This document shows positions 5,688-43,498 of a DNA stretch of 43,498 nt, piece after piece. Positions within the stretch are counted from its first letter, which is position 1; every line of letters begins with the position of its first letter. The notes below the pieces were generated by a model. It saw only the letters and a list, made by a program, of their open reading frames with translations. It was not told the origin of the DNA and did no database searches. A program made the translations under genes and the position numbers. Source of the stretch: a virus; IMG/VR virus record IMGVR_UViG_3300033153_007852, positions 1 to 43,498 of that record. One strand, 5' to 3'.

Positions 5688-5709
5688 ATTATGTAAGAGG
5701 ATAAAAAAA

Positions 5710-9021: not shown

Positions 9022-9579
9022 ATGAATACACTTGCAAGAATAGGACAATTCGCAACGGCCAATGCCGGTAATATACAGGCCATTGCAGGTGCGTTGGTAG
9101 AAAGCAGGGCGGAGAAACGTGTCGCTCAAATATCTGAGGAAATCGCGGCTTATAACGCCGAGAATTTGGAACAGCAGGCCAAAGCCGCAATTCAGAAAGG
9201 CAGATTTGAGGCTTTGAAATTAAAGAGAGCGGCAAGAAAAAGAATGGCGGCCAATATCGCCAAAGTCGGGGCGGGCGGCGGACTTCTGACAGGGTCAAAA
9301 TTACTGCTAATAGCCGACGATGCGGCGGAAGTAGAGAGGGAGGCACAACAGATATTACTTAATGCGCAGATAAAGGAAGCCGCATTTTTAGGCAAAGCGG
9401 ACGTAACGAGATTCAGAGGCAGACAATTCGCGGCAGCAGCCAATATAAGGGCAAGGCAGGCTAAATTCGGCGCGATAGGTCCCCTGTTCTCGACAGCGGC
9501 CAACCTTGCTGCGGGTCTGACTAAAAAACAGTTAAAAACTCAACCGAAACAACCAAATCCTTTTCTAAGAATAGAATGA
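9022..9579 (+). CDS. Internal virion protein, T7 gp14-like
   Basis: The 185-residue protein starts at the base after the previous stop. It is Ala-rich and helical, with a small-residue N-terminal segment, a long coiled-coil stretch (QISEEIAAYNAENLEQQAK) and a KVGAGGGLLTGS turn, then further amphipathic helices. This is the composition and size of gp14-like ejection proteins (T7 gp14 is 196 residues), which leave the head first and form a channel in the outer membrane. Order between the gp13-like and gp15-like genes supports the call. Confidence 0.75.
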   Translation: MNTLARIGQFATANAGNIQAIAGALVESRAEKRVAQISEEIAAYNAENLEQQAKAAIQKGRFEALKLKRAARKRMAANIAKVGAGGGLLTGSKLLLIADDAAEVEREAQQILLNAQIKEAAFLGKADVTRFRGRQFAAAANIRARQAKFGAIGPLFSTAANLAAGLTKKQLKTQPKQPNPFLRIE

Positions 9580-14200: not shown

Positions 14201-16601
14201 GCGGGTTGTAGAAGCTGCCGGAGCAGAAGAACTTGCTCCTGCGGACGATCCCGTTCAACTCGCTGTAGCTTTTACGCAGAAATCTTCCGCAAAGACCAGA
14301 AGTTTTGTCATGGAATCTACTACCGATTTGGCCGGTAATAGAAAAAGCAAGAGCTTGAAACAGATATTCACGCCATTGATAAAAGATGGTGGCAAAAAAA
14401 GGTTTGAGGATTTTGTTACTTATCTTGTGGCAGCCAGAGACTTGAACCTACAGAAACGAAATATAGAAACAGGCATAGACCCCGTTGCTTCACAGTTAGC
14501 TTTTGATGCCTTGGATTCACCGGAATTTGCACGGGCAGTGAGAGAGGTTACCGAATGGAACCAAAAGGGAATTGATCTACTTGTCGAATCGGGAAGGATA
14601 ACGCGAGAATCTGGCGAGGCTATAAAACTCGCAAATCCTATCTACGCACCATTTTTCAGAGAATTTGAAGAAGAGCCAGGTATTGCGAGAAAAGGCAAGA
14701 AATTTACGCCCAAGAGAATAAAAGGCTCTAAGAGAAAAATAGTAGACCCGATAGAGGGCATGATACAACAGATGGAAGCCACTATATCCAGTGCTCAAAG
14801 GGCGGCGATAGAAAGATCAATGGCAAATCTTGCTACCGAAAACCCAGAGGCGTTAGAAGATTTTATAACTCCAACGAGAGCACCGGTTGTGCCAACTAAA
14901 TTGACAGTCAAGGAAATTAAGGCGGAACTTGAAGAAATAGGTATTGATTTTTCCGGTGTCTCAAACGAGGACTTAAATGAATTGCTTACTATCTTTAGGC
15001 CATCGGCTTTTCCTGCTACTCAGGGTGTCATAAAACTAAAAGTAGCAGGTGAGAACAAATTTTTCAAAGCGGAAAAGGAATTGTTAGAGATATTAGATGG
15101 TCTAGATGTTTACAAACTTGGGCCATTTTGGGATTTTGTAGTTGGCAAGCCAACTCGATTATTGAAATTGGGTGCAACTGGATTAAACGCAGCTTTTGGT
15201 TTGATAAGGAATCCAGCAAGGGATATACAGACGTTTTTTGTTACTTCAAAATTTGCTAAGGCTGGCCCGTTTTCGGCGATTAGTGGCGTATTGAAAGACA
15301 TCAAAACAAAAGCGGCGGGCGTTGCCGAAAATTTCGGATTCAATAGTTTAAAGAAAAGCGAAGATCTGGTAAAGTTTGCAGCGTTAGGTGGGGAAATGTC
15401 GGGGTTTATCACACAAGATCGGGCGGGAACCAAACACCTTCAACATGATATGCTTGCCAGCAATGGTATTCGTTATACTATTAACACTTTCGCCCACCCC
15501 ATAGATGCGTTACGAAACTTGATTAGTGTTACCGAAATTGGAGTAAGAATAGGGGAGTTTTCTCCTGCATTAAAAGAGGGTGAAAGACTGTATGGAAAGG
15601 GAAGTTTATCCGCTTCGGTTTTTGCTCTAAATGCAGCACAAGACGTTACAACTAATTTTTCCAGGCATGGTCAGATTGGAAAGCAACTTAATCAGATTAT
15701 TCCGTTTTTTAATGTAGCCATACAGGGGCCGGACAAAATTATTCGTTCTTTCAGAGAAAGACCGTTCAAATCTACAATAGCTGCTGTTAGCAGCATGACA
15801 ATTCCAGCCTTATTCTTTTGGTGGAGAAATAAGGACAAGCCTTGGTATCAAAACATGACAGCCCACGAAAAAGCAAATTACATACATTTCGAGTCACCGA
15901 GTGACGAAACAGTTATTATGCGATTCCCTGTTGCTTTTGAATTAGGCCATATATTCCAAGCAGTACCAGTAGCTTTTCTTGATGCCGTACATAATAGCAG
16001 GCCGGAGGAAATTCTTGATATTTTAAAAGCTACGTTAAAAACAGCCAATCCCTTAGATTGGCCCTCGTTGATAGGTCCGATCATAGATATAAAAGCTAAT
16101 GAGGATTTCGCAGGCAGGCCAATAGTTTCCCGTTCTGATGAAGGTAAATTGCCGGAAGATCAATTTGGGCCGCATACTACAGAACTGATGAAAGTAATTG
16201 GCAAGACCTTAAATATGTCTCCATCGCAGATAGAGCATGCTGTCAATTCTTATTCTGGTGGCATTTACAACAGGGTTGCTCGAATGTTAAAAAATAACGA
16301 CACCGAAAAACAGCCTGCTGATATTCCTGTTATTGGTACTTTGTTTCTTAGGGACCCGTTTGCTCCCAGAAAACAAGTAGAAAAATTCTATAAAGAACGT
16401 GAAGAGTTGAACAAAAAATTTCAATCCAAAAAGATAACCACCAAAGAAGTTCTTAGGAGGGTTGTAATCAATAATATAGCGTCCGTATTGAATGTTAATT
16501 TCGATAAACTTAAAAATGTCAAAACGACAAAACAAAGAAAGAAAATATGGTCTGAAATAGGACGGGCCATCGAATTAAGTAATAAATTAGCACCCAAATA
16601 A
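11250..16601 (+). CDS. Very large internal virion/ejection protein, T7 gp16-position
   Basis: The 1783-residue protein is the largest in the genome. ATG 11250 overlaps the gp15-like stop; an upstream TTG at 11229 is less likely. It is helical and charged, with a Gly/Ala-rich hydrophobic region around residues 340-400 and another near 480-530 that could insert into membrane, a Pro-rich linker at about 565-600, and a segment near 1080-1140 (RFEDFVTYLVAARDL...LANPIYAPFFREFEE) resembling the large polyvalent-protein-associated domains of phage ejected proteins. T7 gp16 is 1318 residues with a lytic transglycosylase at its N-terminus; I cannot find an ESG...GxxQ-type catalytic motif here, so peptidoglycan cleavage may be done by another protein. 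The C-terminal third (W-rich, WWRNKDKPWYQNM) resembles gp16-like tails. Confidence 0.78.
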   Translation: MANKKISEFGFEFETSVDILVSDEDFERLARNDKVESFGFVFEKEFVDPNISTTIDKTFEIGKKKQFNQVKFTNDVLDMQFETVEPQDIAQEEGIEKGLLVGAFSDIPDVNNSIVFLRQNPFPPKFNPNTDTKESFTDKQIKWMESKTIVENWIEGVTPMGITSIPLTETEIEEQASLERRLAVEKFIQERPEDVKVLIRKSEDELIKTFLKEKGEPTVMGIGKLLGFPETTEGVADRFRRPLLLKKAQEHELNKLEEEGVIPSRRKSRGFFSEFGRSLGKSTLDRTSQVLTFIERFTAPASVFEPEFFSDLADKAKKASESPSLNVGKGTPIRSFVASSIADGITFTGATIAATLTGGPVAGLSVAFVVEGESTYEEIIAAGGTEEQAAWGMLVVGGINAALEQLRVNQIISFGRGGANTSFKKVADAIKSKSFEKIAAVGGDISKDVAVNAISESIQEVLQEADSLIVPAILGVKLATFEEAVTRVAKAGAGGAIAGPVVGGGGAIAAALVESGISQDRADLVEDMLARGESVETIVESAKSPQRRLVGPAGEDVERGPSGKPLISELFKPTEPSPEAPVAPSVTEPAPEGVAIPLKQIAEEKKAIKRLKKEVEEEVRNDPIFEIESEAKDITDRLTDIGVISIPPNFRGEAEAAIESFPQLKFHITFDPQKGKAPDTFIAEALGRNKLEGDIAETHGHMNIEDFLELVGESLEGRKKIGGIPEVLLNKMRESGNPFSEITALKHTMLHDGFTVDEINDSIKELEFDPEFDIDIEPLLLKGKTDVEKKQRIPEKVEDKDKGIERQGRKEEGEEGLAELTLPEVPPEKRIISRDAFEAAKKRLIDPTILRAGLDPQQLKDAVIVGGFLVESGVRKFADWSVRMVKEIGEHIRPHLRTIWNSLQAEKPTEIDRVSEEAQQKVVTDIARVKSLPKQQQRQIETESVAKVKERISFKKPKVSIRQHFKNLLFKTDKAFRDEFAGLRRVVEAAGAEELAPADDPVQLAVAFTQKSSAKTRSFVMESTTDLAGNRKSKSLKQIFTPLIKDGGKKRFEDFVTYLVAARDLNLQKRNIETGIDPVASQLAFDALDSPEFARAVREVTEWNQKGIDLLVESGRITRESGEAIKLANPIYAPFFREFEEEPGIARKGKKFTPKRIKGSKRKIVDPIEGMIQQMEATISSAQRAAIERSMANLATENPEALEDFITPTRAPVVPTKLTVKEIKAELEEIGIDFSGVSNEDLNELLTIFRPSAFPATQGVIKLKVAGENKFFKAEKELLEILDGLDVYKLGPFWDFVVGKPTRLLKLGATGLNAAFGLIRNPARDIQTFFVTSKFAKAGPFSAISGVLKDIKTKAAGVAENFGFNSLKKSEDLVKFAALGGEMSGFITQDRAGTKHLQHDMLASNGIRYTINTFAHPIDALRNLISVTEIGVRIGEFSPALKEGERLYGKGSLSASVFALNAAQDVTTNFSRHGQIGKQLNQIIPFFNVAIQGPDKIIRSFRERPFKSTIAAVSSMTIPALFFWWRNKDKPWYQNMTAHEKANYIHFESPSDETVIMRFPVAFELGHIFQAVPVAFLDAVHNSRPEEILDILKATLKTANPLDWPSLIGPIIDIKANEDFAGRPIVSRSDEGKLPEDQFGPHTTELMKVIGKTLNMSPSQIEHAVNSYSGGIYNRVARMLKNNDTEKQPADIPVIGTLFLRDPFAPRKQVEKFYKEREELNKKFQSKKITTKEVLRRVVINNIASVLNVNFDKLKNVKTTKQRKKIWSEIGRAIELSNKLAPK

Positions 16602-16613
16602 TAGGAGTCAAAA

Positions 16614-18827
16614 ATGAAAACTAAAATACTAATTTTACTACTGTTGTGCGGTATGTGTAGGGGTGTTGTGAACACTACGAGCACAAGAGCCGGACCATAC
16701 GCAGGCAATGGGAGTAACACTACCTTTACTTTCAGTTTTAGTTTCACGGACACTTCGGAAATTGTAGTCAGGACTCGTACATCGGGTGTTGAATCTGATC
16801 CATTGACGGAAACTACGGACTATTCGGTGAGTGCGGCCAGCGACACGGGCGGAACCGTGACATTCGTTACCGCTCCGGCCAGTGGAACTACCGTGACTAT
16901 CAACAGGGTGTCCACAGCCACGCAGAGCAACGATATAGACGCGGCATCCTCAATATCATTCACATCTCTGGAAGCCTCCCACGACCGAGCTATGCGTCTC
17001 ATTCAGGAGGAACAGGCGGTAGGTAACAGGGCTATCGTAATGCCGATAAGCGATGATCCAGATTTGGATATGGTATTGCCGAGTTCAAGCAGCAGGGCTT
17101 CAAAGGCTCTTATGTTCGATTCAAGTGGCAATGTAATCGCAGAAGGCACTACCCCCAACGCTTTAAGCGATTTCAGTTTTATTGATGATAGTACGGGTTA
17201 CGCCGACCTCAATACGGCTGTGGCGGCAATAGGCACAACCCAGACAACGCTTTATATCACTGCCAATACTACGGTTACGGATAATTTAACAGTACCCTCT
17301 ACGATTGAATTAAGATTCCAAAGACAGGGTAAATTGACCATTGCCGCAAATAAAAATGTGACGATAAATGGTCCGATGACGGGCGGTTTATCTCAAAGAT
17401 TTGACGGAGACGGGACCGTATCTTTCGGTGACGGCTATATTTTTGAAGTATTCCCGCAATGGTGGGGAGCGGTAGCAGATGATTCTACCGATGACGCTGA
17501 TGCAATCACAGCCTGTATCTTAGCGGCTAATACTGATAACAGCAGGATAAGAGTTACCTTCCCGACCGGTGTTTACAGGATAGTTGACACCACGCTTAGC
17601 ATGACGGCTTATGATAATTGGGTAGGGGCGGGAAAGAGATGTACTGTACTTTCGTTTGAAGGTGACACTTCCGGTATTGATTGCAATGACAATATCACTT
17701 TACGCGATATGACCTGTCGCGGAGACGCAACATTAGGTGACGGCATGATTGGGCTGGATTGTACAAACGATGGAACTCTTAACATAACCAATGTTCGATT
17801 TGACGGTTTTGATGTCGGAGTTAATCTCAATACGACTTTCACCGCATCTTTTAACAATTGTGAATTCAGAGATAACACGACATCGGGCATAGGCGCAAAT
17901 GGCAGTACGAATAACGGCATTCATTTTAACGACTGTTACATAGGCAGCAATCCGACCGGCGCTTTGATACGGGGCAATCTGATGTCTTTTATAGGTTGCA
18001 CGATTGAAGGCGGTACGAATTACGGTATCAGAGCAACGTCGCCACAAAGTAAACTTCTAATTATGTCTTGTCACATCGAGACGAACGGGACAGGGGGTGA
18101 GATAAGCATTGAAGGCGGTGGCGACGGCTTAACTGTAATAAATAATACAATCGCTATAGAAGCAAGCGGCAAAGGTATAAATATCGAAGGGGTACGCCTT
18201 AAGGGAGCAGTCATTCAAGGCAATAGATTTACTCACGGCGCAGATGGTACGGCGATTATATTTGACCCAAATGTAAGATCACCTCTTTTGATAAAAAACA
18301 TATATGATAATACGGGTACTGATATAACCGATAATTCAACAACTGGTTATTGTACGCTTGCGGACGCTGGAAGTCAGGATATAGTAGCGGCCGGTTTATT
18401 GCAAGGGGACAATCTCGTAACGGTCAACGTAAATATGTCTGATGTATCGGTAAGATTATTACATACTACGCCGTTTCAACTGGTTGCCGCCCCCGGAGCG
18501 GACAAATTTTTGGAATTTGTAAGCGCTACTCTTTATATGGATGTCACTACACCTTTCGATAACGCGGCAGGTGACGGCAACTTGAAAATCAGTTTTGTAG
18601 ACGAAAATGGTACGGTAGTATCGAATACTATTGAGGGCGATGACTTTATTGACACAACTTCCGACAGGATAACAAACGTAACGCCTTTGAGCGATGTAGA
18701 CGTAGCGGCCTCAAATTCCATAAACAAAGCTTTGGTTATCTTTAATGATGGAGGGGCATATTCGAGCGGTACTGATTCGGTATTGTCGGTCAAAACAACT
18801 TATCGAGTACACACGGCAGGATTTTAA
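16614..18827 (+). CDS. T7 gp17-type tail fibre/tailspike with signal peptide and beta-helix
   Basis: The 737-residue protein has AGGAG upstream of ATG 16614. Residues 1-18 (MKTKILILLLLCGMCRGV) form a Sec-type leader. Residues ~25-130 match the T7 fibre N-terminal attachment domain (GNGSNTTFTFSF, a TVTINRVSTATQS strand, ASHDRAMRLIQEEQ). Then WWGAVADDSTDDADAI and FPTGVYRI mark the start of a pectate-lyase-like right-handed beta-helix to about residue 600, as in depolymerase tailspikes. The last ~120 residues (18466-18824) are homologous to the tip of the fibre ending at 1868. It probably binds or cleaves surface polysaccharide; no catalytic residues can be assigned from sequence alone. A signal peptide ahead of a virion-attachment domain is unusual. 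Confidence 0.88.
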   Translation: MKTKILILLLLCGMCRGVVNTTSTRAGPYAGNGSNTTFTFSFSFTDTSEIVVRTRTSGVESDPLTETTDYSVSAASDTGGTVTFVTAPASGTTVTINRVSTATQSNDIDAASSISFTSLEASHDRAMRLIQEEQAVGNRAIVMPISDDPDLDMVLPSSSSRASKALMFDSSGNVIAEGTTPNALSDFSFIDDSTGYADLNTAVAAIGTTQTTLYITANTTVTDNLTVPSTIELRFQRQGKLTIAANKNVTINGPMTGGLSQRFDGDGTVSFGDGYIFEVFPQWWGAVADDSTDDADAITACILAANTDNSRIRVTFPTGVYRIVDTTLSMTAYDNWVGAGKRCTVLSFEGDTSGIDCNDNITLRDMTCRGDATLGDGMIGLDCTNDGTLNITNVRFDGFDVGVNLNTTFTASFNNCEFRDNTTSGIGANGSTNNGIHFNDCYIGSNPTGALIRGNLMSFIGCTIEGGTNYGIRATSPQSKLLIMSCHIETNGTGGEISIEGGGDGLTVINNTIAIEASGKGINIEGVRLKGAVIQGNRFTHGADGTAIIFDPNVRSPLLIKNIYDNTGTDITDNSTTGYCTLADAGSQDIVAAGLLQGDNLVTVNVNMSDVSVRLLHTTPFQLVAAPGADKFLEFVSATLYMDVTTPFDNAAGDGNLKISFVDENGTVVSNTIEGDDFIDTTSDRITNVTPLSDVDVAASNSINKALVIFNDGGAYSSGTDSVLSVKTTYRVHTAGF

Positions 18828-18840
18828 GAAAGGAAACGGT

Positions 18841-19155
18841 ATGGCAAAGAACAATAAACTAAAATGGCTGGTAATTATAGTCCCCATAATGGTCTTATTC
18901 GCGGGCGTTGTTGGAACGTGGGCAATTTACGGCGAGGATATAGAGGACAACCAAAAGGCCGTTACGGGCGCTTTTAAGGCCGTCAAAGAGGCTAAATCGG
19001 AATGCAAAGAGCAAATATCCATATTAAAAAAAGACGGCTGTGATCCTGCCCGTGATCATAAAACGGAAATAGCGGTCCTTAAATCTACCATGAAAGTGAT
19101 GCAGATTGAGCAACGGGAAGGATTTAAGGCTATTCTTGAAAGGCTGCCAAAATGA
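18841..19155 (+). CDS. Membrane-anchored coiled-coil protein, i-spanin (Rz)-like or holin
   Basis: The 104-residue protein has a short basic N-terminus, one membrane segment at about residues 9-30 (WLVIIVPIMVLFAGVVG), then a charged helical periplasmic-type domain with two Cys. Single N-terminal span plus coiled coil is the layout of inner-membrane spanins. The lipoprotein gene 160 bases downstream would be its partner. Good ribosome binding site (AAAGGAAA) before ATG 18841. A one-span holin is an alternative. First gene after the fibre, in the usual lysis position. Confidence 0.6.
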   Translation: MAKNNKLKWLVIIVPIMVLFAGVVGTWAIYGEDIEDNQKAVTGAFKAVKEAKSECKEQISILKKDGCDPARDHKTEIAVLKSTMKVMQIEQREGFKAILERLPK

Positions 19156-19394
19156 AAGCTACAGACTATTTAGGTAAGATACTGGACTTAATTAACGAGT
19201 TATACGTTAAAGGCCTTGTCGATGCCCCCGATGAGTTTACCGCCGTTAATGAAATCGAGCAGGCTATATACAGGGCAAGGCAGGTATTTGAAAGTCAGAT
19301 TAAGGAGCCTAAAAATGAAAAGGTTAATATGTTTATTCGTATTTATCGTTTTTGTCAGCAGTTGTGCCAAAGTTGGAAAACTGGCCGATGGTAG
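19152..19394 (+). CDS. Small hypothetical protein between spanin genes
   Basis: 80 residues; ATG overlaps the previous TGA (ATGA), and the last 80 bases overlap the lipoprotein gene in another frame. It is soluble, with an acidic helical first part (DYLGKILDLINELY) and an aromatic, basic end. No family is recognised. Tight coupling on both sides supports it being translated, possibly to drive translation of the lipoprotein. Confidence 0.55.
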   Translation: MKATDYLGKILDLINELYVKGLVDAPDEFTAVNEIEQAIYRARQVFESQIKEPKNEKVNMFIRIYRFCQQLCQSWKTGRW

Positions 19395-19545
19395 TATTTA
19401 TTACGAAAGAATAGGTCCACAAAAACTTGACGGCGTAACGATGACTTTGGGCGATGGAAGCTCGTTATCTTTTGAAAAACAGGAGGCCGACGTCACTAAA
19501 CTAATTGACGCTTTTATAGCTTTTCTTCAGCAATTAAAGAAGTGA
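19315..19545 (+). CDS. Small lipoprotein, o-spanin (Rz1)-like
   Basis: 76 residues with a type II signal peptide: basic MKR, hydrophobic core and lipobox ending VSSC at residue ~17, giving a mature lipoprotein of about 60 residues. AAGGAG lies seven bases before ATG 19315. Overlap with the upstream gene resembles the nested Rz/Rz1 arrangement. Spanin pairs fuse inner and outer membrane at lysis, which supports a Gram-negative host. It is not especially Pro-rich, so the spanin role is inferred from lipobox, size and position. Confidence 0.65.
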   Translation: MKRLICLFVFIVFVSSCAKVGKLADGSIYYERIGPQKLDGVTMTLGDGSSLSFEKQEADVTKLIDAFIAFLQQLKK

Positions 19546-23776: not shown

Positions 23777-24907
23777 ATGGCAAAGAAAAAGAACACATTA
23801 GCATTAGTAAAAAACGTAAATGCCTATATGGAACTACCTGATATTACCAACAGGTTGAGTGAAAAACTGGGGTTGGACGAGGCAATGAAGTTCAAGGCCG
23901 CTTTATCATCGGCAATATCAACAAATCCTGTTCTGGCGAATGAGTGCGATCCGGGGAGTGTTATCAACTGCGGTCTTATAGGCTATAGCTTGAAACTTCC
24001 GCCAAGCCCGCAATTGGGATATTACTACATGGTCCCTTATAAAAATAAGAAAAAGAACTGTAAGGAAGCGACATTCCAGATGGGTTATAAAGGATATATA
24101 CAGCTTGCTCTGCGCAGCGGCTACTACCGAAAGCTGAATGTTACCAATGTTAAGGAAGGCGAATTCGTAAGCTGGGAACCTTTGACCGAGAATCTGAAAG
24201 TTAATTTTATTGAAGATCCCGACAAAAGAGAGAAGGCAAAAACTGTCGGCTATTGTAGCTTTTTTGAGTACACCAACGGATTTACTAAGATGCTATACTG
24301 GACGCTGGAACGGGTAGAAAGGCACGCAGATAAATATTCTCCGGCATACAGCCTCAAACAACACAAGCTCTTGAAAGCCGGTAAAATTCCACCAAAAGAC
24401 CTATGGAAATATTCAAGCTTTTGGTATTCGGATTTTGACAGCATGGCTAACAAGACTATGCTACGTCAATTGTTGAGCAAGTGGGGTTCGATGAGTGTAG
24501 AGATGCAAGTTGCATACGAGGAAGATTTGAAAAGTGAGCGTGTTTCATTTACACAAGCACAAGAAACGGCTACGAAAACGATCCAAGATGAGACTGGCAG
24601 CGAGGATGTTACCTTTGAACCAATAAACGAACCGGACCCCGAAAAGGAAGCCGAATTCAAAGAAAAACAAGCAAGGGCGAAAAAGAAATTGCAGGAAGCA
24701 AAAGACAAAAAGGGCAAGGCCGGGAAGCCTGCCTTCATGGAAGGAGCGGACGAATCAGTTAACACTTTCAAAGAAGAGGAAGTATTTACTTACGTCTGCG
24801 AACGGTGTGATAAAATCTTTGAACTTACAAAAAAGCAAGGCGTAAATGCGATCTGCGAAGCGGACTGTCTCGGCAAACTTTATTTACAAGAGCCGCAAGC
24901 CGAATGA
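23777..24907 (+). CDS. recT: RecT-family single-strand annealing protein
   Basis: 376 residues; AAGGAG before ATG 23777. The RecT core is plain: ISTNPVLANECDPGSVINC, then LGYYYMVPYKNK and ATFQMGYKGYIQLALRSGYY, the hallmark block of the family. A charged linker follows and the C-terminal ~35 residues hold CERC and CEADC, a zinc-finger-like extension that standard RecT (269 residues) lacks. It anneals complementary DNA during phage recombination, probably with the SbcC-like ATPase. Confidence 0.92.
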   Translation: MAKKKNTLALVKNVNAYMELPDITNRLSEKLGLDEAMKFKAALSSAISTNPVLANECDPGSVINCGLIGYSLKLPPSPQLGYYYMVPYKNKKKNCKEATFQMGYKGYIQLALRSGYYRKLNVTNVKEGEFVSWEPLTENLKVNFIEDPDKREKAKTVGYCSFFEYTNGFTKMLYWTLERVERHADKYSPAYSLKQHKLLKAGKIPPKDLWKYSSFWYSDFDSMANKTMLRQLLSKWGSMSVEMQVAYEEDLKSERVSFTQAQETATKTIQDETGSEDVTFEPINEPDPEKEAEFKEKQARAKKKLQEAKDKKGKAGKPAFMEGADESVNTFKEEEVFTYVCERCDKIFELTKKQGVNAICEADCLGKLYLQEPQAE

Positions 24908-25629
24908 CCTTTGACCAACTATATTCCAGCAGTACGGGCAATCTTTACGTGGTGACGGCCAACAACAGCGAACGCCTGCTCATAGAGTGCGGTGTAGCGT
25001 GGCCTAAGCTGATTAAAGCCCTGAATTATAATTTGGAGGGTATCAAGGGGTGTCTGCTAACACATGAGCACATAGACCATTCTAAGGCCATTCACGACGT
25101 TATTAAGGCGGGTATTGATGTATTCGCAAGCAAAGGAACTATTGATGCGATTGATATTAAAGGTCGGCATATCAGATATATCAAGAATAGGGACGTAGGC
25201 TTGATAGGCAACACTTTACGATTCAAGGCTTTCAACACAAATCATGACGCAGCCGAACCGTTGGGTTTCATAGTCCACGAAATAGCAACCGGCGAAAACC
25301 TTTTGTTCGCTACCGACACCTCTCACATAACCCAAAGATTCAAACTGAAATTTGACATCATAGCAATCTGTTGCTCCTACAACGGCGAATATCTGGCAAA
25401 GCGTGTCAAAGAGAAAACGATAAACGAAACAGTCGCAAAACGGTTGCTGACCGCTCACATGGAACATAATGAAACCAAAAGGTATCTATCCGAATTTTGC
25501 GATTTGTCCAGAACACGAGTGCTACATCTTTTACATCTTAGCCACGATAATATCAATAAGAAGAAGATTAAGGCCGATTTTGAGAAAACTTTTTTTATAC
25601 AGACCGTCATAAAAGGCCTTGACAAATGA
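24904..25629 (+). CDS. Metallo-beta-lactamase-fold hydrolase/nuclease
   Basis: 241 residues; ATG overlaps the recT stop (ATGA). HEHIDH near residue 58 is the HxHxDH zinc site, followed by NTNHDA, FATDTSH and a C-terminal HLSHDN, giving a full two-metal set. Similar phage proteins accompany RecT and probably act on DNA, taking the exonuclease place. RNase or phosphodiesterase activity cannot be excluded. Confidence 0.82.
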   Translation: MTFDQLYSSSTGNLYVVTANNSERLLIECGVAWPKLIKALNYNLEGIKGCLLTHEHIDHSKAIHDVIKAGIDVFASKGTIDAIDIKGRHIRYIKNRDVGLIGNTLRFKAFNTNHDAAEPLGFIVHEIATGENLLFATDTSHITQRFKLKFDIIAICCSYNGEYLAKRVKEKTINETVAKRLLTAHMEHNETKRYLSEFCDLSRTRVLHLLHLSHDNINKKKIKADFEKTFFIQTVIKGLDK

Positions 25630-32750: not shown

Positions 32751-33209
32751 ATGAGTGTTTCAGAGAAAGCAACAAAAAAAAGTAAGCACGCCGTGGGGAG
32801 GTCTACAAAATACAAACCTGAATTTTGCGATAAACTAATCAAATATTTTGACGCAGAACCCTGGAAAATCGTAGAAGGAAAAAGAGCTTACAGGCGCATG
32901 CCAACTATTGAAGGATTTGCAAAGCGCATAAAGGTGTGTATATCAACAATTTATAATTGGATCGACAAAGATCATGCCTCTTTTCAACCTGAATTTTTGG
33001 ATGCTTACAATAAAGCAAAGCAGTTAAGGAAGAATTGGTTGATCGACGTAGGCCTTTCAGGACTTTCACCGGCGAATAGTTTTAAATTTGTAGCGGTAAA
33101 TTGTACTGATATGAGAGACAAGGTACAAGAGGAACATACAGGTCCGGGTGGCGGGCCTATAGAATTAAAAGTTGTGGAATATAATGCGATTGACAGAGAC
33201 AATACCTAA
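32751..33209 (+). CDS. terS: Terminase small subunit
   Basis: 152 residues. Basic N-terminus, KYKPEFCDKLIKYF, then a helix-turn-helix (TIEGFAKRIKVCISTIYNWI) and LSPANSFKFVAVNCTDMRDK, the standard small terminase plan. Recognises phage DNA for packaging. First gene of the late block; its end overlaps the large subunit. Confidence 0.85.
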   Translation: MSVSEKATKKSKHAVGRSTKYKPEFCDKLIKYFDAEPWKIVEGKRAYRRMPTIEGFAKRIKVCISTIYNWIDKDHASFQPEFLDAYNKAKQLRKNWLIDVGLSGLSPANSFKFVAVNCTDMRDKVQEEHTGPGGGPIELKVVEYNAIDRDNT

Positions 33210-34647
33210 CGACAGGTTTAATAACCACATTGAGAAGCACGAGAAGGAAGTATTGGCTGCTTTTGATAGACTTGACCGATGGTTTGTCTTGGAATGGCAC
33301 AGAAGAGCGCGAAAAACTTCACTTGCAATAAATCTGTTAATTCGGGAGTGCTGTCGCAATAATAAGGCTAAATATATTTATGTAGCACCAACGCAAGTTT
33401 GGGCGAGAAATATCGTCTGGGATGATCCTACGATGATTTGGGATGCTATGCCCACAAAAGAAGCTATTTTCTGGAAGAAATCAGATCAGAAAATGTTACT
33501 TACATTTGCTAATGGTTCTATGTTGAAGGTGGCGGGTAGCGACGAGCCGGATGCGATTCGGGGAATTGACGCGAGTGGGGCAGTATTTGATGAATGGGCG
33601 CTGCACAAACCGGCGGTATGGACGGAGGTATTTCGCTCGATAATGGCGGGAGAGCCGATTGAAGGAGCGAAGCACGCGCGCTGGGCGATGTTTCTGTACA
33701 CGCCTAAAGGCACAAATCACGCTACACAAATGTTCGATTACGCTGCGTGTATTGAGAGCGAGGTTGATTTACCAGTCACCGGCAAAGCTGAGAAGTGCAA
33801 GCCTGAATGGTTTGCGAGTCGGCTAACTGCCGACGAGTCTGGGATAATACCTCAACGAGAGCTTGATAAAATGCTTGAAGACGTCGAGAATGGTATTATT
33901 ACTCGCATTGAATACGAGCAAGAAATGCGATGCAAGCGGGTGACAGATGAGGAGCGTACTTTGATAACTTCCGCTATGCTCGATAAGTTGAGCCGAATTG
34001 ATAGAGAGCTTTTAAAGTTAAATGAAGGGGCAAAGAGGCGTATTGTTGCCATCGACCCAGCTTTCGGTGGTGATGTATGTGCTATCAAAGGGTTTGAAGA
34101 CGGCAGGGTAGTCGCAGAAAAGAATGTACATCATACATTAACCAGTGAAGTTATCTTCGAGGCCAAAGAGATGGCGAGGAGGGTTAAGACACCGAATTTC
34201 ATTGTTGACTGTATTGGTGTCGGCAAAGGTGTCGCGGATGGGCTTCATAATGACAAAGCTAATTACAACGTGCAGTATTTTAATAGTGCCGGTAAGGTCA
34301 AGGATTCTGATTTATTCGCTAATTTGAAGGCGGAGGCGGTTTATTATTGTGCCCAGAAGATCAGGAGATTTGAAGTCGGGCCCGTAAAGGATAAGATTAC
34401 CAAGCGTCAGTTAATCGCTTTATCTCGTTACAAAATACAGCCCGGTTCCGGCTTAATGATTATGATTTCGAATGATGATGTTAAAAAAGAGATAGGCAAC
34501 AGTCCCGATCAGGGATTGTGTTGGATTTATGGTATTTACGGCTTGCAATTTGTCAAGCCGTTGGAGGATTTTATCAGGGAGAGCGAGGAGGAGTTCACCA
34601 CGGCGGGTTCAGGTTCGTTAACGAGTTATGACTGGGAGCCGAGTTAA
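33184..34647 (+). CDS. terL: Terminase large subunit
   Basis: 487 residues from ATG 33184 (TTG 33172 possible). ATPase: WHRRARKTS at residues 38-46 as Walker A, AVFDEWA as Walker B, and a YTPKGTNHA-type coupling motif. Nuclease: VAIDPAF, FIVDCIGVGKGV and a late DQG aspartate supply the RNase H-fold metal ligands. Motor that fills the head and cuts DNA. Confidence 0.94.
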   Translation: MRLTETIPNDRFNNHIEKHEKEVLAAFDRLDRWFVLEWHRRARKTSLAINLLIRECCRNNKAKYIYVAPTQVWARNIVWDDPTMIWDAMPTKEAIFWKKSDQKMLLTFANGSMLKVAGSDEPDAIRGIDASGAVFDEWALHKPAVWTEVFRSIMAGEPIEGAKHARWAMFLYTPKGTNHATQMFDYAACIESEVDLPVTGKAEKCKPEWFASRLTADESGIIPQRELDKMLEDVENGIITRIEYEQEMRCKRVTDEERTLITSAMLDKLSRIDRELLKLNEGAKRRIVAIDPAFGGDVCAIKGFEDGRVVAEKNVHHTLTSEVIFEAKEMARRVKTPNFIVDCIGVGKGVADGLHNDKANYNVQYFNSAGKVKDSDLFANLKAEAVYYCAQKIRRFEVGPVKDKITKRQLIALSRYKIQPGSGLMIMISNDDVKKEIGNSPDQGLCWIYGIYGLQFVKPLEDFIRESEEEFTTAGSGSLTSYDWEPS

Positions 34648-35202: not shown

Positions 35203-36882
35203 ATGGGCATAATCAAGGACATTTTAACCCGTCAGAATCGCATGGAAGATGCGAGGGAACCGTACGAGGGCTTGATGAACTGGAATATCCGCGTGGCTGT
35301 TCCGGCGAGGGAGAAGATTAGCGATTACGAGATAGATGACAAGGGGAACATAAAAGGCAAAGGTATATGGGATCCAACTGCGGCGGCAAGTCTTGAGACA
35401 TGGAAGAACGGCATATTGGGTTGGCACACACCGTCTAATTTACCTTCCGGCTGGTTCAGGGAGGCGGCGAATGACAGAGAACTCCGGGAAAATCGGAGAA
35501 TCCGCAAGTTTTTACAGGAGGTGGATGAGCAGCTTAATTTTGCTCTTGACCGTTCGAATTATTACGAAATGAAGGGCGTTCGGCTTACTGATTCGGGAGG
35601 TATCGGTCCGAGCTATATGTTCGCTGATGAGGATGTGGAGACTGGTAAAATCAATTTCAGAGTACCGCACCCGCGTCAATTATGGCACGAACTTGATTTC
35701 TTTGGTGTTGTCAATAAGATGCATTATCGTTACGAATTGCCTTTGAGGGAGGCGATCAGGACGTTCGGGCGGGATTGGCTTACATATACACAAGACCAGA
35801 CTGAGAAGACCCAACCGGACCAGAAGATAAGGATAATTCAGGCGATTTACAAAAATTATGAGTTTGACGCCGACAAAGAGAGTGTGGGCATGAACAGGCC
35901 GTGGCTGTCTTATACGGTGAATCTTGACGGTACAGAGGTTGAGGGCGGTACTTTGATGCAGCAGAGCGGCTATAATACGGTTAATCCGATCCCTTGGCTC
36001 TTGAATCGAGCAACACACGAATTATATCCTCGAGGTGTTGTGGGCCAGTTTTTGATTGAGATAATCACCTCGAATTACATGATGCGGGATATGCTCATGG
36101 CTTCGCAGAGGGCTGTCAGGCCCGCTATGATCGCTTTAGATACTCTAAAACACAAGTTAAAGCCCCAAGCGGGCGGGTATACATGGGTAGACAGGCATGA
36201 TTTTCAGGCAGTTGGCAACGCTCCAATTGCCAAGCAGTTATTTGACCGTGTGGATTATCCATTTGCTTTTGAGGTAGTAGACAGATTCCAGTCAGTTATA
36301 GAATCTCGATTCGGTGTCCCGTTCTTTTTATTAATGAATAGGCTTGAGACCCCTACTAAGACCGCCACGGAAATTTTGCAGAAGCAGGGAGAGCGTGCGG
36401 TTTTGATGGCTCCTTTTTTAGGAATACTCAATGCCGTAACGGACATGGAGCTTGACCGAATAACGGACATTGAATTTACGGGTGGCAGAATGCCGGAGAT
36501 ACCGGAAGAATTTTTGCTTGCGAGGAATAAGAGGATTGATATACAATATACCGGACCTTTGCCGCAGCTCATAAAGCAGTATTATGAGGTCAACCGGATT
36601 CAGGCGGCGGTATCACAGGTTGCTTTTATGATGGAAGTTGACGAGAAGGCGATATTCAATATAGACACAGACGTAATGACGCAGGAATTATTGAAGGCTT
36701 CCGATGCTCCGGCCGACGGTATTGTACCTTTGGAGAATGTCAAAGAGATAAGACTTGCTCTGGCGCAGGCTGAGGCTGAGCAACAGATGGTTAATCAGGC
36801 CGAGCAGTTGGACAAAATATTACCTCAACTCGACAAGGCCCCTGAGAAGGGGTCTGCGGTTGAACAGTTACAGACGGCATAA
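35203..36882 (+). CDS. Portal / head-tail connector (T7 gp8 type)
   Basis: 559 residues from ATG 35203 (GGAG nine bases upstream). Family blocks: NRMEDAREPYEGLMNWN start, GWHTPSNLPSGWF, IGPSYMFADED, VPHPRQLWHE, YPRGVVGQFL and TPTKTATEILQKQGER, as in head-to-tail connecting proteins (T7 gp8 is 536). Forms the dodecameric DNA gate. The Gln/Glu-rich C-terminus is usual. Confidence 0.92.
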   Translation: MGIIKDILTRQNRMEDAREPYEGLMNWNIRVAVPAREKISDYEIDDKGNIKGKGIWDPTAAASLETWKNGILGWHTPSNLPSGWFREAANDRELRENRRIRKFLQEVDEQLNFALDRSNYYEMKGVRLTDSGGIGPSYMFADEDVETGKINFRVPHPRQLWHELDFFGVVNKMHYRYELPLREAIRTFGRDWLTYTQDQTEKTQPDQKIRIIQAIYKNYEFDADKESVGMNRPWLSYTVNLDGTEVEGGTLMQQSGYNTVNPIPWLLNRATHELYPRGVVGQFLIEIITSNYMMRDMLMASQRAVRPAMIALDTLKHKLKPQAGGYTWVDRHDFQAVGNAPIAKQLFDRVDYPFAFEVVDRFQSVIESRFGVPFFLLMNRLETPTKTATEILQKQGERAVLMAPFLGILNAVTDMELDRITDIEFTGGRMPEIPEEFLLARNKRIDIQYTGPLPQLIKQYYEVNRIQAAVSQVAFMMEVDEKAIFNIDTDVMTQELLKASDAPADGIVPLENVKEIRLALAQAEAEQQMVNQAEQLDKILPQLDKAPEKGSAVEQLQTA

Positions 36883-37483: not shown

Positions 37484-37801
37484 ATGCCAAACATAGTATT
37501 AACAAAAACAGGCGGCGGTCGATTGTTGTTGGATTCGGAGAGGATAGCTCACGCTCAAGATGAGAAAGGCAACCAGAGGATAACCAAGATTATTTACGAA
37601 ACGACGCGGAATACCACGGATAATTTCAGCGTCATGGAAACGCCGGACGAGATAGCGATATTGGGTGCAGGTGGTACGATTCCGACAACTATAACAAATA
37701 CAACGTTGGAACTGGCTGAAGTGATCCATGAGGACACTCCGCCGAAAAGCAAAAGGAAGAACATTAACGCAAAAAAAAGAAAGAAAGGAATCATAAAATG
37801 A
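37484..37801 (+). CDS. Hypothetical protein with basic tail
   Basis: 105 residues, AGGAGA upstream. Beta-rich first 80 residues, then a Lys-rich end (KSKRKNINAKKRKK). Not recognised. Overlaps the next gene by ATGA. Confidence 0.6.
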   Translation: MPNIVLTKTGGGRLLLDSERIAHAQDEKGNQRITKIIYETTRNTTDNFSVMETPDEIAILGAGGTIPTTITNTTLELAEVIHEDTPPKSKRKNINAKKRKKGIIK

Positions 37802-38247
37802 AACGAAATCTATTATGTTTTATAGTGATATGCGCAGTCAGTCTGCTTGGTACTGTGATTTTGCTGGCAGCGACCGGCGATGAGACTGCGGCCTTGACGA
37901 GTTCTGTCGAAGAGAGGGTTGAGGTAAATCCTGTCTGGGAGATAGTCGTTACCGGGACTTACGATGAGGATGATACGGGCGATGTCACCCATTCTATGCC
38001 TCACAACGGGATATTGCAGAAAGTGATATTGACAGTACCCGATACTACGTCGGACCCGGCCTGTGAGGTTGAGATACTCGACAACGGCGACAATAAAGTA
38101 TTCGATTCCGGCGATCAGGCAGCGGGTGCTTCCTACTTTTACAACGTCACGGAGCCTTTGAGCGGTACGATTGATATTGTGATGGGGCCTGCAAGTGCTA
38201 TGAGTACGGGCGGCGGCAGTATCGTTGTTACTTTACGAGGGATATGA
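37798..38247 (+). CDS. Exported-type beta protein of the head module
   Basis: 149 residues. N-terminal MKRNLLCFIVICAVSLLG is signal-peptide- or anchor-like; the rest is a beta sandwich of the sort found in phage decoration proteins (EIVVTGTYDEDDTGDVT, then ILQKVILTVPDT, ending SGGGSIVVTLRG-like). Coupled to its neighbours. Virion decoration or surface-binding protein is likely. Confidence 0.6.
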   Translation: MKRNLLCFIVICAVSLLGTVILLAATGDETAALTSSVEERVEVNPVWEIVVTGTYDEDDTGDVTHSMPHNGILQKVILTVPDTTSDPACEVEILDNGDNKVFDSGDQAAGASYFYNVTEPLSGTIDIVMGPASAMSTGGGSIVVTLRGI

Positions 38248-38248: not shown

Positions 38249-39025
38249 ATGAAACAACTCATTCTCATATTGTTGTTGTGTAGTTTGTGTTTCAGCAAAA
38301 CCGCCAAGTATGTCAAGCCGGAAATTTCCAGCAAAAATATCGTAATGGATATGCCTTTAGACGCATGGTTTAGCAGTGGTCAGACTACGGTATATGATTA
38401 CGCGGGTTCGCTTACGGGAGCGGTGACAGGGACTTCGATAGTACCCGCATATCCGGGGTTTGATTTTGCCGGTAACGATGAGTATATCGACACTACGAGC
38501 GCTTTTCAGGCCATTTTCAGGGGCAGTTTTACTATCTCTTTATGGTTTAAGGCCGACGACGGTCGACCTTCGGGGGTTAAATATTTGATTGGCGCAAATA
38601 ACGCGGCACATGAGGACAACATCACCGTAAGAATTAACTCTTCGGGGGATTTGCAGTTTTCCTATGTATCAAACAGTAACCTAACATCGGCGATAAGTAA
38701 TACCGCAAATCTTAATAATGGTCAGGAGTCATGGCACTATATTTGTTGTGTAGCCGATTCGACTATTGGCGGGGTCGGTGGTTTGAAAATATACTTCGAC
38801 GGTACGGTTGTGACTTTGGGAACATCCGATGGTGACACATCCGGTATCACCTTTGCGGATTACACAAGTGCCGATGAAGTTTATATCGGGGCTAATGACA
38901 ATGATGGTACGGCTGAATACTGGTTTGCCGGTCGGATAGCGGAGGTCAAGATTTTCTCTTCGCCCAAGACGGCTGTCGAGGTCAAAAACATATTTGAGAT
39001 TGAGCGAGGAATGTTTGGGATATAA
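38249..39025 (+). CDS. LamG/concanavalin-like domain protein with signal peptide
   Basis: 258 residues. Leader MKQLILILLLCSLCFSK (nearly the same as that of the nozzle protein), then a LamG fold: MDMPLDAWFSS, FDFAGNDEYIDT, FTISLWFKAD, WHYICCVAD, LKIYFDGTVV and AGRIAEVKIFSS. LamG domains bind glycans. Set among head genes, it may be a capsid-displayed carbohydrate-binding protein, or exported to the host surface. Confidence 0.82.
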   Translation: MKQLILILLLCSLCFSKTAKYVKPEISSKNIVMDMPLDAWFSSGQTTVYDYAGSLTGAVTGTSIVPAYPGFDFAGNDEYIDTTSAFQAIFRGSFTISLWFKADDGRPSGVKYLIGANNAAHEDNITVRINSSGDLQFSYVSNSNLTSAISNTANLNNGQESWHYICCVADSTIGGVGGLKIYFDGTVVTLGTSDGDTSGITFADYTSADEVYIGANDNDGTAEYWFAGRIAEVKIFSSPKTAVEVKNIFEIERGMFGI

Positions 39026-39261
39026 TGGGAATTGAAGCCAAATACAGGGCGGTTTTCAGGAATCAGTTGGGGCAGGAAGTCCTTGACGATATATGTCATC
39101 GAGGTCGATTACTTGACGAATGTATGACGCAGGAGCATTTAGGTCGGGAGAATTTGGCCAAAGAGATATTATCTTTGGCGTTGAGTAACGATTCGGGCAT
39201 GGTTATGCGGGAGAAATTTATTAAACTTTTAAGGCGAATACGAAAGAAAAAAAAGAAATGA
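39025..39261 (+). CDS. Bbp19-like small phage protein
   Basis: 78 residues. YRAVFRNQLGQEVLDDICHRG near the start is the hallmark of the Bbp19-like family found beside portal and capsid genes in BPP-1-type podoviruses; Lys-rich end. ATG overlaps the LamG stop (TAATG). Function not established. Confidence 0.7.
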   Translation: MGIEAKYRAVFRNQLGQEVLDDICHRGRLLDECMTQEHLGRENLAKEILSLALSNDSGMVMREKFIKLLRRIRKKKKK

Positions 39262-39596
39262 AAACAAAAATGATTATCATGGTATTGCTGTTGGCGGGTC
39301 TTGTTATGTGTCAGGTTGGACGGTCTGTAATGCCGCTTGTGAAAAATAATCAAAAAGAAATTGATGATGAGAGTTGTTTAACAGTTACTTCTTGCGCCAA
39401 AAAGCACACAGTTCGTTTTCAGGCTCTTATTACAATGGGTGGTGATGTTGAATTGGAGTGGGGCGACTATATTGTTCAGGCAGATCACCTTGCTTTTTAC
39501 GAATGGTTTGACAACTTGACTATCAAAGAAATCCGAGATAATTGGGGGTATGATGTTGTTAGGTACGAAGAAATTGTAAAAGGAGAAAAGAAATGA
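39258..39596 (+). CDS. Small exported-type hypothetical protein
   Basis: 112 residues, with hydrophobic leader MKTKMIIMVLLLAGLVMCQVG, coupled to the gene before (ATGA). Mature part has two Cys (ESCLTVTSCAKK) that could form a disulfide, which would fit a periplasmic location. Not recognised. Confidence 0.6.
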   Translation: MKTKMIIMVLLLAGLVMCQVGRSVMPLVKNNQKEIDDESCLTVTSCAKKHTVRFQALITMGGDVELEWGDYIVQADHLAFYEWFDNLTIKEIRDNWGYDVVRYEEIVKGEKK

Positions 39597-39892
39597 AGAA
39601 GCTGATTTTGCCGATATTGGCGGCTATATGTCTGTCGGCTGTGTATGCCGGATGGGACTACGCACCAAGAAAAGCGGTGTCGAAGGATTTGGTGGAGTAT
39701 CTTTTGCCTGCACCAAAGAAAATCGTAGACGAACACGGCTATCTTGAAAGAACGACGGTTCTTTATAATCTGATAGTCATTAAGGGAATTTGTGAAAATC
39801 AGGAGAAGCGTATTACGGCTCTTGAAACTCACATCAAATCATTGAAAGACGCAAACGGGATACCTGCGGAACAACCCGCAGCCCCTAAATAA
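39593..39892 (+). CDS. Small exported-type coiled-coil protein
   Basis: 99 residues with a textbook signal peptide (MKKLILPILAAICLSAVYA, cut before GWD), then a helical section with a short coiled coil (NQEKRITALETHIKSLK) and a Pro/Ala tail. ATGA-coupled to the previous gene. Unknown function. Confidence 0.62.
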   Translation: MKKLILPILAAICLSAVYAGWDYAPRKAVSKDLVEYLLPAPKKIVDEHGYLERTTVLYNLIVIKGICENQEKRITALETHIKSLKDANGIPAEQPAAPK

Positions 39893-40185: not shown

Positions 40186-40977
40186 ATGTTTGATTTATTC
40201 AGAATCTTACCGTTTTTGATGGCGGAAGGCGATGGGGGTAATGGTGATAGTGGTAATGATGGTGATGGTGATGACGCTCCATATTATGAAAGTTTCGAGA
40301 ACGAAGAAACGCGGAACTGGGCAAAGAGTAAAGGTTACAAAAGCCCCGAAGAGCAGATGGCAGGACATCACGAACTCGAAAAGATAATGGGTACAATGAT
40401 AAAGCCTCCAACCGCCGAATCAACAGACGAAGACTGGGCGGCTATCGGCAAAATAATAGGTCCCGAATCCGTGGATGCCTACAAAGTCGAAATACCGGAA
40501 GGCATGGAAGCGTATTTCAATCAGCCCCTTATCAACTCAATCAAGGAAGAATGCTTCGCCGACGGCATACCGGCACGATATGTCAATAAGATATTCGAGC
40601 GGTATATCGCGGGTACCAAAGAGAGCATTGACGCTTTGAACGCGGAGGCTCAGAAAATCATTGATGCCGATATTGCCGAATTAAAAAAAGACTGGAAGGC
40701 CGATTATGAGAAAAATGACGAATATCAGAGGCGAGGCTGGGACAAAGTTGCTGAGAAAGCCGGAATCAAGAAAGAGGACTTCGCTCAATTCGCCAAAGAA
40801 ACCGGGTGGGATACTCATCCGATAATGAAAAAGATAGGCATGGTCATAGGGCGATTGTACGCCGACGCTTTCCCGAGCGGTGGCCCCGACGATAATGAAG
40901 CGAGTGATGGACTGAATGAGCCTTTGATATTAGGAAAAGATTTTTACAAAAAGACGGATTCGCAAATACAAGTATAA
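40186..40977 (+). CDS. Scaffold / capsid assembly protein
   Basis: 263 residues, strong site AAAGGAG. Short hydrophobic start (MFDLFRILPFLMA), Asp/Gly-rich stretch, then acidic helical sequence (WAKSKGYKSPEEQMAGHHEL, IIGPESVDAYKVEIPE) as in T7 gp9-type assembly proteins. Directly precedes the capsid gene. The hydrophobic start is too short for a good signal peptide. Confidence 0.78.
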   Translation: MFDLFRILPFLMAEGDGGNGDSGNDGDGDDAPYYESFENEETRNWAKSKGYKSPEEQMAGHHELEKIMGTMIKPPTAESTDEDWAAIGKIIGPESVDAYKVEIPEGMEAYFNQPLINSIKEECFADGIPARYVNKIFERYIAGTKESIDALNAEAQKIIDADIAELKKDWKADYEKNDEYQRRGWDKVAEKAGIKKEDFAQFAKETGWDTHPIMKKIGMVIGRLYADAFPSGGPDDNEASDGLNEPLILGKDFYKKTDSQIQV

Positions 40978-41151: not shown

Positions 41152-42162
41152 ATGGCAGAATATAATGCTAATCAACGTTTCACTTTGTTAGACAGGGCGA
41201 ATCGCACTAAGGATGGTAAGACAATTTTACCAATAATTAGTGTCATGTCCAAAAAAGTGAGCAACTTTCTTGACGACATTCCTTACATGGAAGCCAATAT
41301 GGGGCTTCAACACAGATTTGTAAGGGATGTAGGGATGTCGGCGAGTACCAGACGCAAATTTTACGGTGGTGTCGCCGCATCGAAACGAGATTCCCAGACA
41401 ATCTTCGAGCCGGTAGCTTTACTTGAACGCCGGTCGGAGGTTGACGAGGATCATCTCGACACTCTTGCTAACCCGATACAAGAGCGTGAGAATCAGGATG
41501 TCGGGCATATCGAAAAGTTGGGCGAGGACTTGTGTAACAATCTGTTCCATGACGATCCCGCAAACGGCAGTGAGAGAATTCATGGCTTGGATCCGAGACT
41601 TAATAATCTCAGCCAAACGCTCAACAACACCTACGATGGTGGTCACAGCACGGCTTCTTCATGTTCCAGTATTTACATTGTGGAATGGAATACGAGGGAC
41701 GGTGCTTTCGGTATTTACCCGCCCGGAGCGGCCAAGAATACTACATTTGGTATTTCGGTTCGCAACAAGGGCAAAGAACATCTGGCAGATGAGGACGGCA
41801 ACACATACTATGCGTATGTAACGCAGTTCAAGATGTGGCAGGGTTTGGTGGTTATTAACGAGCGGAAGATCGCTCGAATCGCCAATTTTAACTCCGAGAT
41901 AGGAGCTTCCAACAGCTTTACCACAAGCGGTCAGGAGCTTCTCATTGAGGCATTGAATAAAGGACGTTTCGACAAGGGCCGTACCCGTATCTACATGAAC
42001 GAGACGATGAAAACTCAAGTCGACATCGATGCTGAAAAAAAGAATAACGTCAGTCTCAAAATCGAAATGGCGTTCGGCAAGCCTATCGAGACAATTCACG
42101 GTGTCCCAATTCGTGTCGTTGACGATACCATTTTGCTAACCACTGAGAACCCGATTACTTAA
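41152..42162 (+). CDS. Major capsid protein
   Basis: 336 residues from ATG 41152, GGAAAGG at 41138-41144. Sequence such as RRKFYGGVAASKRDSQTIFE, EDLCNNLFHDDPANG-SERIHGLDPR and YVTQFKMWQGLVVINERKIARIAN matches the HK97-fold capsid proteins of BPP-1/Bcep22-like podoviruses. Follows the scaffold, precedes a cement protein. No signal peptide or delta-domain. Confidence 0.9.
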   Translation: MAEYNANQRFTLLDRANRTKDGKTILPIISVMSKKVSNFLDDIPYMEANMGLQHRFVRDVGMSASTRRKFYGGVAASKRDSQTIFEPVALLERRSEVDEDHLDTLANPIQERENQDVGHIEKLGEDLCNNLFHDDPANGSERIHGLDPRLNNLSQTLNNTYDGGHSTASSCSSIYIVEWNTRDGAFGIYPPGAAKNTTFGISVRNKGKEHLADEDGNTYYAYVTQFKMWQGLVVINERKIARIANFNSEIGASNSFTTSGQELLIEALNKGRFDKGRTRIYMNETMKTQVDIDAEKKNNVSLKIEMAFGKPIETIHGVPIRVVDDTILLTTENPIT

Positions 42163-42657: not shown

Positions 42658-43498
42658 ATGAAGTTTAAGAAAATAATAACTTTAATCTTTTTGCTTGTAA
42701 TGGCTGGTGTTTGCGACGCCGCAATGACGAATTCGGCGACAACCATCGATTACGGGTCGAGCGATACGTATTCGGATGTCGTTGACAATCCGCTGGATTT
42801 GTTTTGCGAAGAAGTCGAGACGATTATCGAGGCGTGGACGCTCGAAGGGTCGGCGGGCACTCTGACTTTCACAAACGGTGCGGTCATCAGTAACGCCACC
42901 AACGGCACACTTGGTTTCAGTGAGGCTTCCGAAGATTTCAACTGGATATTTACCTCGAACACCATAACCGCTTCGACTACAACAGGAACGGTTCTTTTTG
43001 ACTTCGATACTATAGTGCCGGCGGCCAATCAGTTTCTTTGTAATCCTGTCACGGATGCGGTTGGTACTGTCGAAGGTACGATATATTACGACAGCGACGA
43101 CGACAACCTCTACGTGAGGACGACGGCCGGGCTTGTGGATTTAACGGCAGGTGCCGGTTCCGTAACCGATTTGGATACGGCTTATAACGGCGGTGTCTCG
43201 ATTACCGTTGACAACGGAGCGGTTGCCATGACAGCAACCAACGCCGCGAATAATGCGGTATTAAGTCTTACCCAGCAGGATACGGCGTCGTCGACAGCCC
43301 TGCTGATTACAGGCAGTCAAGCGACAGCCAACGCTATTAGTATCGACATCGATTCTCAAACGACAGGCCGTGACATTGAAGGTACGGGCGCTTCCTGGTA
43401 TGTAACAGGTGCCGGTGCCGGGACTTTCGGAGCTTTTATCACAACGGGAACAACCCTTCTTGGTGACGGGACGGATACGGTAGCCGTTAACAGTTCCA
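42658..43498 (+). CDS. Long tail fibre/adhesin, N-terminal part (continues at position 1)
   Basis: AAAGGAG before ATG 42658. The first ~21 residues are a Sec-type leader ending LLVMAGVCDA, with predicted cut after CDA. Then beta-rich fibre sequence, including WTLEGSAGTLTFTNGAVISN and a DTIVPAANQFLCNPVTDAVG module. It reads without a stop to the end of the window and on through 115-1868 across the circular join, giving 864 residues in all. Same leader type as the other two fibres. Confidence 0.85.
   Translation, partial: MKFKKIITLIFLLVMAGVCDAAMTNSATTIDYGSSDTYSDVVDNPLDLFCEEVETIIEAWTLEGSAGTLTFTNGAVISNATNGTLGFSEASEDFNWIFTSNTITASTTTGTVLFDFDTIVPAANQFLCNPVTDAVGTVEGTIYYDSDDDNLYVRTTAGLVDLTAGAGSVTDLDTAYNGGVSITVDNGAVAMTATNAANNAVLSLTQQDTASSTALLITGSQATANAISIDIDSQTTGRDIEGTGASWYVTGAGAGTFGAFITTGTTLLGDGTDTVAVNSS
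43385..43498. repeat. Terminal direct repeat, right copy
   Basis: Identical to 1-114. Marks the circular overlap; see the left copy. Confidence 0.93.

Follow-up and report, generated by a model that had tools for sequence, protein, structure and literature searches.

The window analysed here, the whole 43,498 bases of the IMG/VR virus contig IMGVR_UViG_3300033153_007852, encodes a T7-type nozzle, a T7-gp17-type fibre and further proteins that begin with leaders resembling signal peptides. Judged by sequence comparison, these leaders are very probably conserved, translated, of the Sec type, and confined to accessory proteins and the distal tail. The explanation towards which we lean is that the distal tail would be exported through Sec and would reach DNA-filled heads only at a late stage, probably lysis. 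The general view is that podovirus nozzles assemble inside the cytoplasm; to our knowledge the same is taken to hold for tailed phages as a whole, and we know of no tailed-phage precedent for an exported tail. No description of a signal peptide on a podovirus nozzle or fibre was found in the open-access literature, of which our coverage was incomplete. Assembly split between compartments, with late tail attachment, is a directly testable alternative to cytoplasmic assembly and, if true, bears on the maturation of short tails and on why some phages keep receptor-binding parts outside the cytoplasm.

Leader-bearing proteins of the window genome

Positions 1-114 of the window are identical to 43385-43498. 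This exact 114-bp direct terminal repeat indicates that the record covers a whole circular molecule, 43,384 bp long, and the circular junction makes two mechanically called open reading frames (42658-43498 and 3-1868) a single 864-aa gene. On the evidence of its gene content (terminase, portal, scaffold-like, capsid, gatekeeper, nozzle, ejection and fibre genes), the window genome is that of a complete circular podovirus, with homologues of portal, adaptor, nozzle and fibre occurring together (phrog_332, 394, 376 and 1640; 8ck1). The window genes whose bounds are given in this section, and the Wzy_C gene treated below, lie on the forward strand.

Signal peptides were called with a hand-made rule-based predictor which, tried on 45 Escherichia coli genes, picked out 12 that encode exported proteins or lipoproteins and none that encodes a cytoplasmic protein, while missing appA and the Tat substrate hyaA. 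The window holds seven leaders supported by a ribosome site, where the frequency in leaderless relatives would predict about one (binomial P ~4e-5). Five leaders had been noticed in a first-pass annotation, which assigned them to virion-type proteins, and we confirmed all five with ATG starts. The assignment is well supported for two of the proteins. The tail nozzle of T7 gp12 type (6309-8627; phrog_376, E 2.5e-195; PDB 8ck1, E 2.6e-167) starts with the leader MKRIIIFLMLCSVCFS (6309-6356, predicted from the translation to be cut before K); its match to the 8ck1 'Tail Nozzle' was obtained with an A3 profile of the nozzle family and aligns from profile position 20. The fibre at 16614-18827 combines a T7-gp17-type N-terminal domain with a beta-helix (phrog_1640, E 3.7e-16; PF13229; PF03906 below cut-off) and has the translated leader MKTKILILLLLCGMCRG (16614-16664, cut before V). 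Support is fair for a 665-aa tail spike or virion structural protein (3690-5687; phrog_4636, E 7.6e-22; leader MKRFISILLIICCPCFG in translation, 3690-3740, cut before K), whose start is resembled, by eye, by that of a leader-bearing protein at 4211 in L089. It is weak for the protein at 38249-39025, which has a LamG domain only (PF13385, E 6.7e-17; leader MKQLILILLLCSLCFS, 38249-38296, cut before K). The fifth protein, encoded by the fibre-like gene that reads in frame across the terminal repeat, is without homology support, as neither its 5' part (42658-43498; leader MKFKKIITLIFLLVMAGVCDA in translation, 42658-42720, cut before A) nor its 3' part (3-1868) has a family match; the gene at the same place in the relative L130 (contig 44064) is also leader-bearing. 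Beyond these five, translations revealed three small leader-bearing proteins (MKRNLLCFIVICAVSLLGTVILLAA, 37798-38247; MKTKMIIMVLLLAGLVMC, 39258-39596; MKKLILPILAAICLSAVYA, 39593-39892), and a lipoprotein-type leader lies near 19288. For annotation, a signal peptide does not rule out a role in the virion.

The remaining morphogenesis proteins are leaderless. These are the gatekeeper/adaptor of T7 gp11 type (5671-6312; phrog_394, E 5.4e-33), a gp14-like internal virion protein (9022-9579; phrog_418), a putative ejection protein recognized by position, with no family match (9584-11260), a large ejection protein of 1782 aa (11253-16601; LPD38, besides which one stretch resembles DarB-like antirestriction proteins), the terminase large subunit (33184-34647, by homology), the portal (35203-36882; phrog_332, E 2.1e-54), a scaffold-like protein (40186-40977; phrog_3742) and the major capsid protein (41152-42162; BPP-1-type capsid homologues).

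The leaders have a positively charged n-region, an uninterrupted hydrophobic core and small residues at -1 and -3, as expected for Sec and signal peptidase I. A lipobox ([LVI][ASTVI][GAS]C) was sought in the five leaders and not found, the residue preceding a leader Cys being L, V, I, C, P or M and never G, A or S; VSSC near 19288 does fit a lipobox, and belongs to a separate, lysis-type protein. As first described, Cys stands at -3 in all five leaders and four contain C-x-x-C. As a mark defining the set, however, Cys at -3 does not hold, being present in 7% of 98 leaders from related phages and in 9% in a Phycisphaerae contig; it is peculiar to this window and not lineage-wide. The idea of a leader module copied between genes fared no better, since the leader DNAs differ as much as their peptides permit: those at 6309 and 38249 agree at 29 of 48 in-register bases, despite 10 identical residues out of 16. 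Recent copying was therefore rejected, there being no likeness beyond that imposed by similar peptides.

Leaders among related phages

Relatives were gathered by scanning viral and genome contigs with alignments; among the matches listed, this gave 284 nozzle loci. Single-protein scans with the nozzle or with Wzy_C had no match in viral contigs, whereas alignment queries matched; an OmpA query against plasmids returned nothing useful. About 32 of these 284 nozzle loci, among the matches listed, are leader-bearing and about 250 nozzles are leaderless. The leader-bearing set consists of 30 called nozzles with L233 and L214 added by eye, L245 probably belongs to it, and some calls have an uncertain leader start (e.g., L224). 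The closest cultured relatives, judged by nozzle, terminase and capsid among the matches listed, are podoviruses of the Pelagibacter HTVC and Bordetella BPP-1 types, whose nozzles start with MARVAAQLSNFTAGELSP or similar and are leaderless, in contrast to the window nozzle. The alignment with nozzles of cultured phages (Pelagibacter, Bordetella BPP-1 and others) begins no earlier than window residue 22-23, the leader being an N-terminal extension placed exactly ahead of the conserved homologous start.

In a nozzle tree built without the leader (a quick tree, with SH-aLRT support only), the leader state needs six changes compared with 24 in shuffles, and the window nozzle falls within a 13-row clade in which all 13 members are leader-bearing. 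Signal peptides were called on 137 of 463 open reading frames (30%) in leader-nozzle loci versus 83 of 3331 (2.5%) in the remaining loci. In a hand-made list of 26 nozzle cleavage sites, the residue at -1 is G, A or S every time, mostly after F or L. One class of leader on unrelated tail parts, as the first-pass annotation had it, is thus found conserved in related phages. Absence of the leaders in close relatives, which would have spoken against their significance, was looked for; they are retained throughout the nearest clade, and a single coordinated loss was seen.

We then counted homologous families within dereplicated leader-bearing loci. A leader is present on 27 of 30 nozzles and on all seven T7-gp17-type fibres, and in three further families on 18 of 23, five of seven and four of four members. 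It is present on no gatekeeper (0/26), acetyltransferase (0/16), scaffold (0/14), capsid (0/13) or portal (0/12), and on two of 23 gp14-like proteins; over all loci, among the matches listed, one of 282 gatekeepers was flagged. During T7 assembly the adaptor is added first, then the nozzle and then the fibres at the adaptor-nozzle junction, and the closed portal retains the DNA before tail addition (PMC6702177). Going by these counts, the leader boundary is the same as the T7 tail-assembly boundary, between adaptor and nozzle. The mature nozzles carry no disulfide or compartment signature: they are not poor in Cys, and usually have an odd number of these residues. In leader-bearing phages the nozzle exceeds that of near relatives in acidity by about 3 charges per 100 aa, but so does the leaderless gatekeeper, and composition therefore lends no support to export; the shift is lineage-wide and unrelated to the leader.

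Nozzle and fibre change state together. Among the matches listed, 104 loci have a recognisable gp17-type fibre, and leaders are on both proteins in 10, on neither in 94 and mixed in none (Fisher P 4e-14, a statistic that ignores kinship, the relatives not being independent). The circular 46.8-kb phage contig G179:C12, whose source genome shares its class with the Phycisphaerae MAG in which L130 was binned, has a leaderless nozzle and a leaderless gp17-type fibre, with leaders on other proteins at 13424 (by eye), 17798 and 30078. Its nozzle starts MKISPTITSFNTG, compared with FG|YSPGITSFNTG in L130, and is close to the mature nozzles of L130 and L237. On this comparison we interpret G179:C12 as a case of natural leader deletion in which the mature product stayed the same; with both nozzle and fibre leaderless, it indicates that export is not indispensable for such virions.

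G179:C12 is one of several relatives (with L377, L284, L098 and vir555) in which leaders occur only on fibre- or beta-helix-like accessory proteins and the nozzle is leaderless. Clusters of leaders on such genes lie at 10339-14905 in L377, 30278-34897 in L003 and 1711-6604 in L284, in each case with a leaderless nozzle. Export of accessory receptor-binding proteins may, on this distribution, be the wider and perhaps older state, to which fibre and nozzle were added here. As a separate observation, a 917-aa protein annotated with a caprin-2 domain (24671-27424 of L318, Manatee Spring podovirus MW202898) also has a signal peptide.

Proposed export and late joining of the distal tail

We infer from the exact placement and conservation of the leaders, from the partition between head and tail proteins and from the concerted nozzle-fibre state that the leaders would be genuine, cleavable, host-type Sec signal peptides. 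The distal tail, comprising nozzle, T7-gp17-type fibre and other fibre- or spike-like proteins, would be made as precursors, which host Sec would move across the cytoplasmic membrane and signal peptidase I would trim. Head, portal, gatekeeper and ejection proteins, all leaderless, would remain in the cytoplasm, where DNA would be packaged and the gatekeeper then added. Contact between the two halves would have to await failure of the inner membrane, with nozzle and fibres joining gatekeeper-closed heads at or after lysis. The first-pass annotation had taken the common leader class to suggest a shared export or membrane destination, to which the comparisons also point; its further step to a dedicated route goes too far, as the leaders resemble ordinary host Sec signal peptides, for which host Sec and signal peptidase I would suffice. 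We are more tentative, and slightly on the doubtful side, about the strictest form of the proposal, assembly of the virion in two compartments, with DNA-filled, gatekeeper-closed heads cytoplasmic and the entire distal tail periplasmic until the membrane breaks and the two can join, and with a boundary that lies exactly between adaptor and nozzle and moves concertedly in evolution.

Virion proteins with cleavable Sec signal peptides are familiar from the coat proteins pIII and pVIII of filamentous phages. Inoviruses are, however, extruded through the membrane, whereas the window phage is a tailed dsDNA phage with packaged heads, and the terminase, portal, capsid and scaffold genes in its genome do not fit the membrane-extruded (filamentous) type. 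The module homologous to the T7-type tail (gp8 portal, gp11 adaptor, gp12 nozzle, gp17 fibre) includes the nozzle (also similar to 8ck1), the gatekeeper and the N-terminus of the gp17-type fibre; T7-type nozzles and fibres are without export signal, whereas in the window lineage the parts distal to the adaptor carry one. Sec-exported phage endolysins and Lom-type surface proteins use host signal peptides (PMC8951688, PMC12309495), but they have lysis or host-surface roles, in contrast to the core virion parts exported, on our proposal, in the window lineage.

Uncleaved or slowly cleaved leaders could instead hold the tail parts at the cytoplasmic membrane, where virions would be completed before lysis. 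The distal parts do have a hydrophobic N-terminus, leader residues 2-15 are predicted to be helical in an AlphaFold nozzle model of low overall confidence (mean pLDDT 45.6), and assembly at the membrane is how filamentous phages are made. Against such a tether, which we consider unlikely, stand the cleavage sites, in which a small residue consistently precedes a polar start of the mature protein, and G179:C12, which begins at the mature N-terminus and shows that the leader is not needed structurally. Equally unlikely in our estimation is a partial or leaky export, with most nozzle and fibre folding and assembling in the cytoplasm and an exported fraction acting outside the host by receptor blocking, glycan degradation or help in lysis. 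The same-group phages with leaders on accessory fibre- or beta-helix-like proteins alone would agree with it, but it leaves unexplained both the leaders on nozzles, which have no known function outside the virion, and the perfect agreement between nozzle and gp17-type fibre.

It is improbable that the tail proteins are exported for periplasmic O-glycosylation by a phage-encoded, PglL-like enzyme, which would use a protein and not lipid A as acceptor. The candidate is a Wzy_C membrane protein of the O-antigen ligase/O-oligosaccharyltransferase superfamily with a C-terminal TPR (2026-3690; PF04932, E 1.1e-18; weak similarity to the solved polysaccharide polymerase/ligase 7tpg). In the window its gene is flanked by leader-bearing genes inside the tail module; L255 has the same Wzy_C-TPR combination directly upstream of its gatekeeper gene, and the L232 record has a Wzy_C match upstream of its gatekeeper; both L255 and L232 have leader-bearing genes there. 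Wzy_C is, however, found in only two of 27 leader-bearing viral records, the association (3/30 vs 0/25) is not significant (P 0.24), and a change of the host O-antigen is an equally likely role for the protein. At two of 27 viral records it is too rare to be a general reason for the leaders, and was rejected as such; in the few Wzy_C phages, periplasmic glycosylation of exported tail proteins is worth testing.

That the start codons are wrong or the N-termini hydrophobic by chance is highly implausible and already contradicted by the sequence evidence: although only 18 of 29 leader-bearing nozzles have a strong ribosome site at the leader start, signal peptides are 12-fold enriched over leaderless relatives, the leader is kept across nozzles of only ~30-41% identity, and just two of the 29 offer a further start codon downstream that has a ribosome site, none being usable in the other 27, so the leader must be translated and is not an annotation artefact.

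Host and neighbouring genes

The relative L130, complete and circular with a 127-bp end repeat, was binned in a Phycisphaerae MAG of similar GC content (0.452 versus 0.473), and nearby leaderless nozzles come from Lentisphaerota MAGs. The host may be a member of the Phycisphaerae, binning being weak evidence. A PVC host as the cause of the leaders was rejected, as nozzle relatives from Planctomycetota and Verrucomicrobiota are leaderless where the start is readable; the nozzle relatives in PVC genomes that lie on megabase contigs are probably prophages.

At 18745-19545 of the window, a transmembrane protein is followed by a lipoprotein-like open reading frame, both with no family match; the pair is possibly a two-part spanin and, if so, would imply a host with an outer membrane. 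A metallo-beta-lactamase-fold protein is encoded at 24904-25629, with a weak, below-cut-off match to the anti-Pycsar protein Apyc1.
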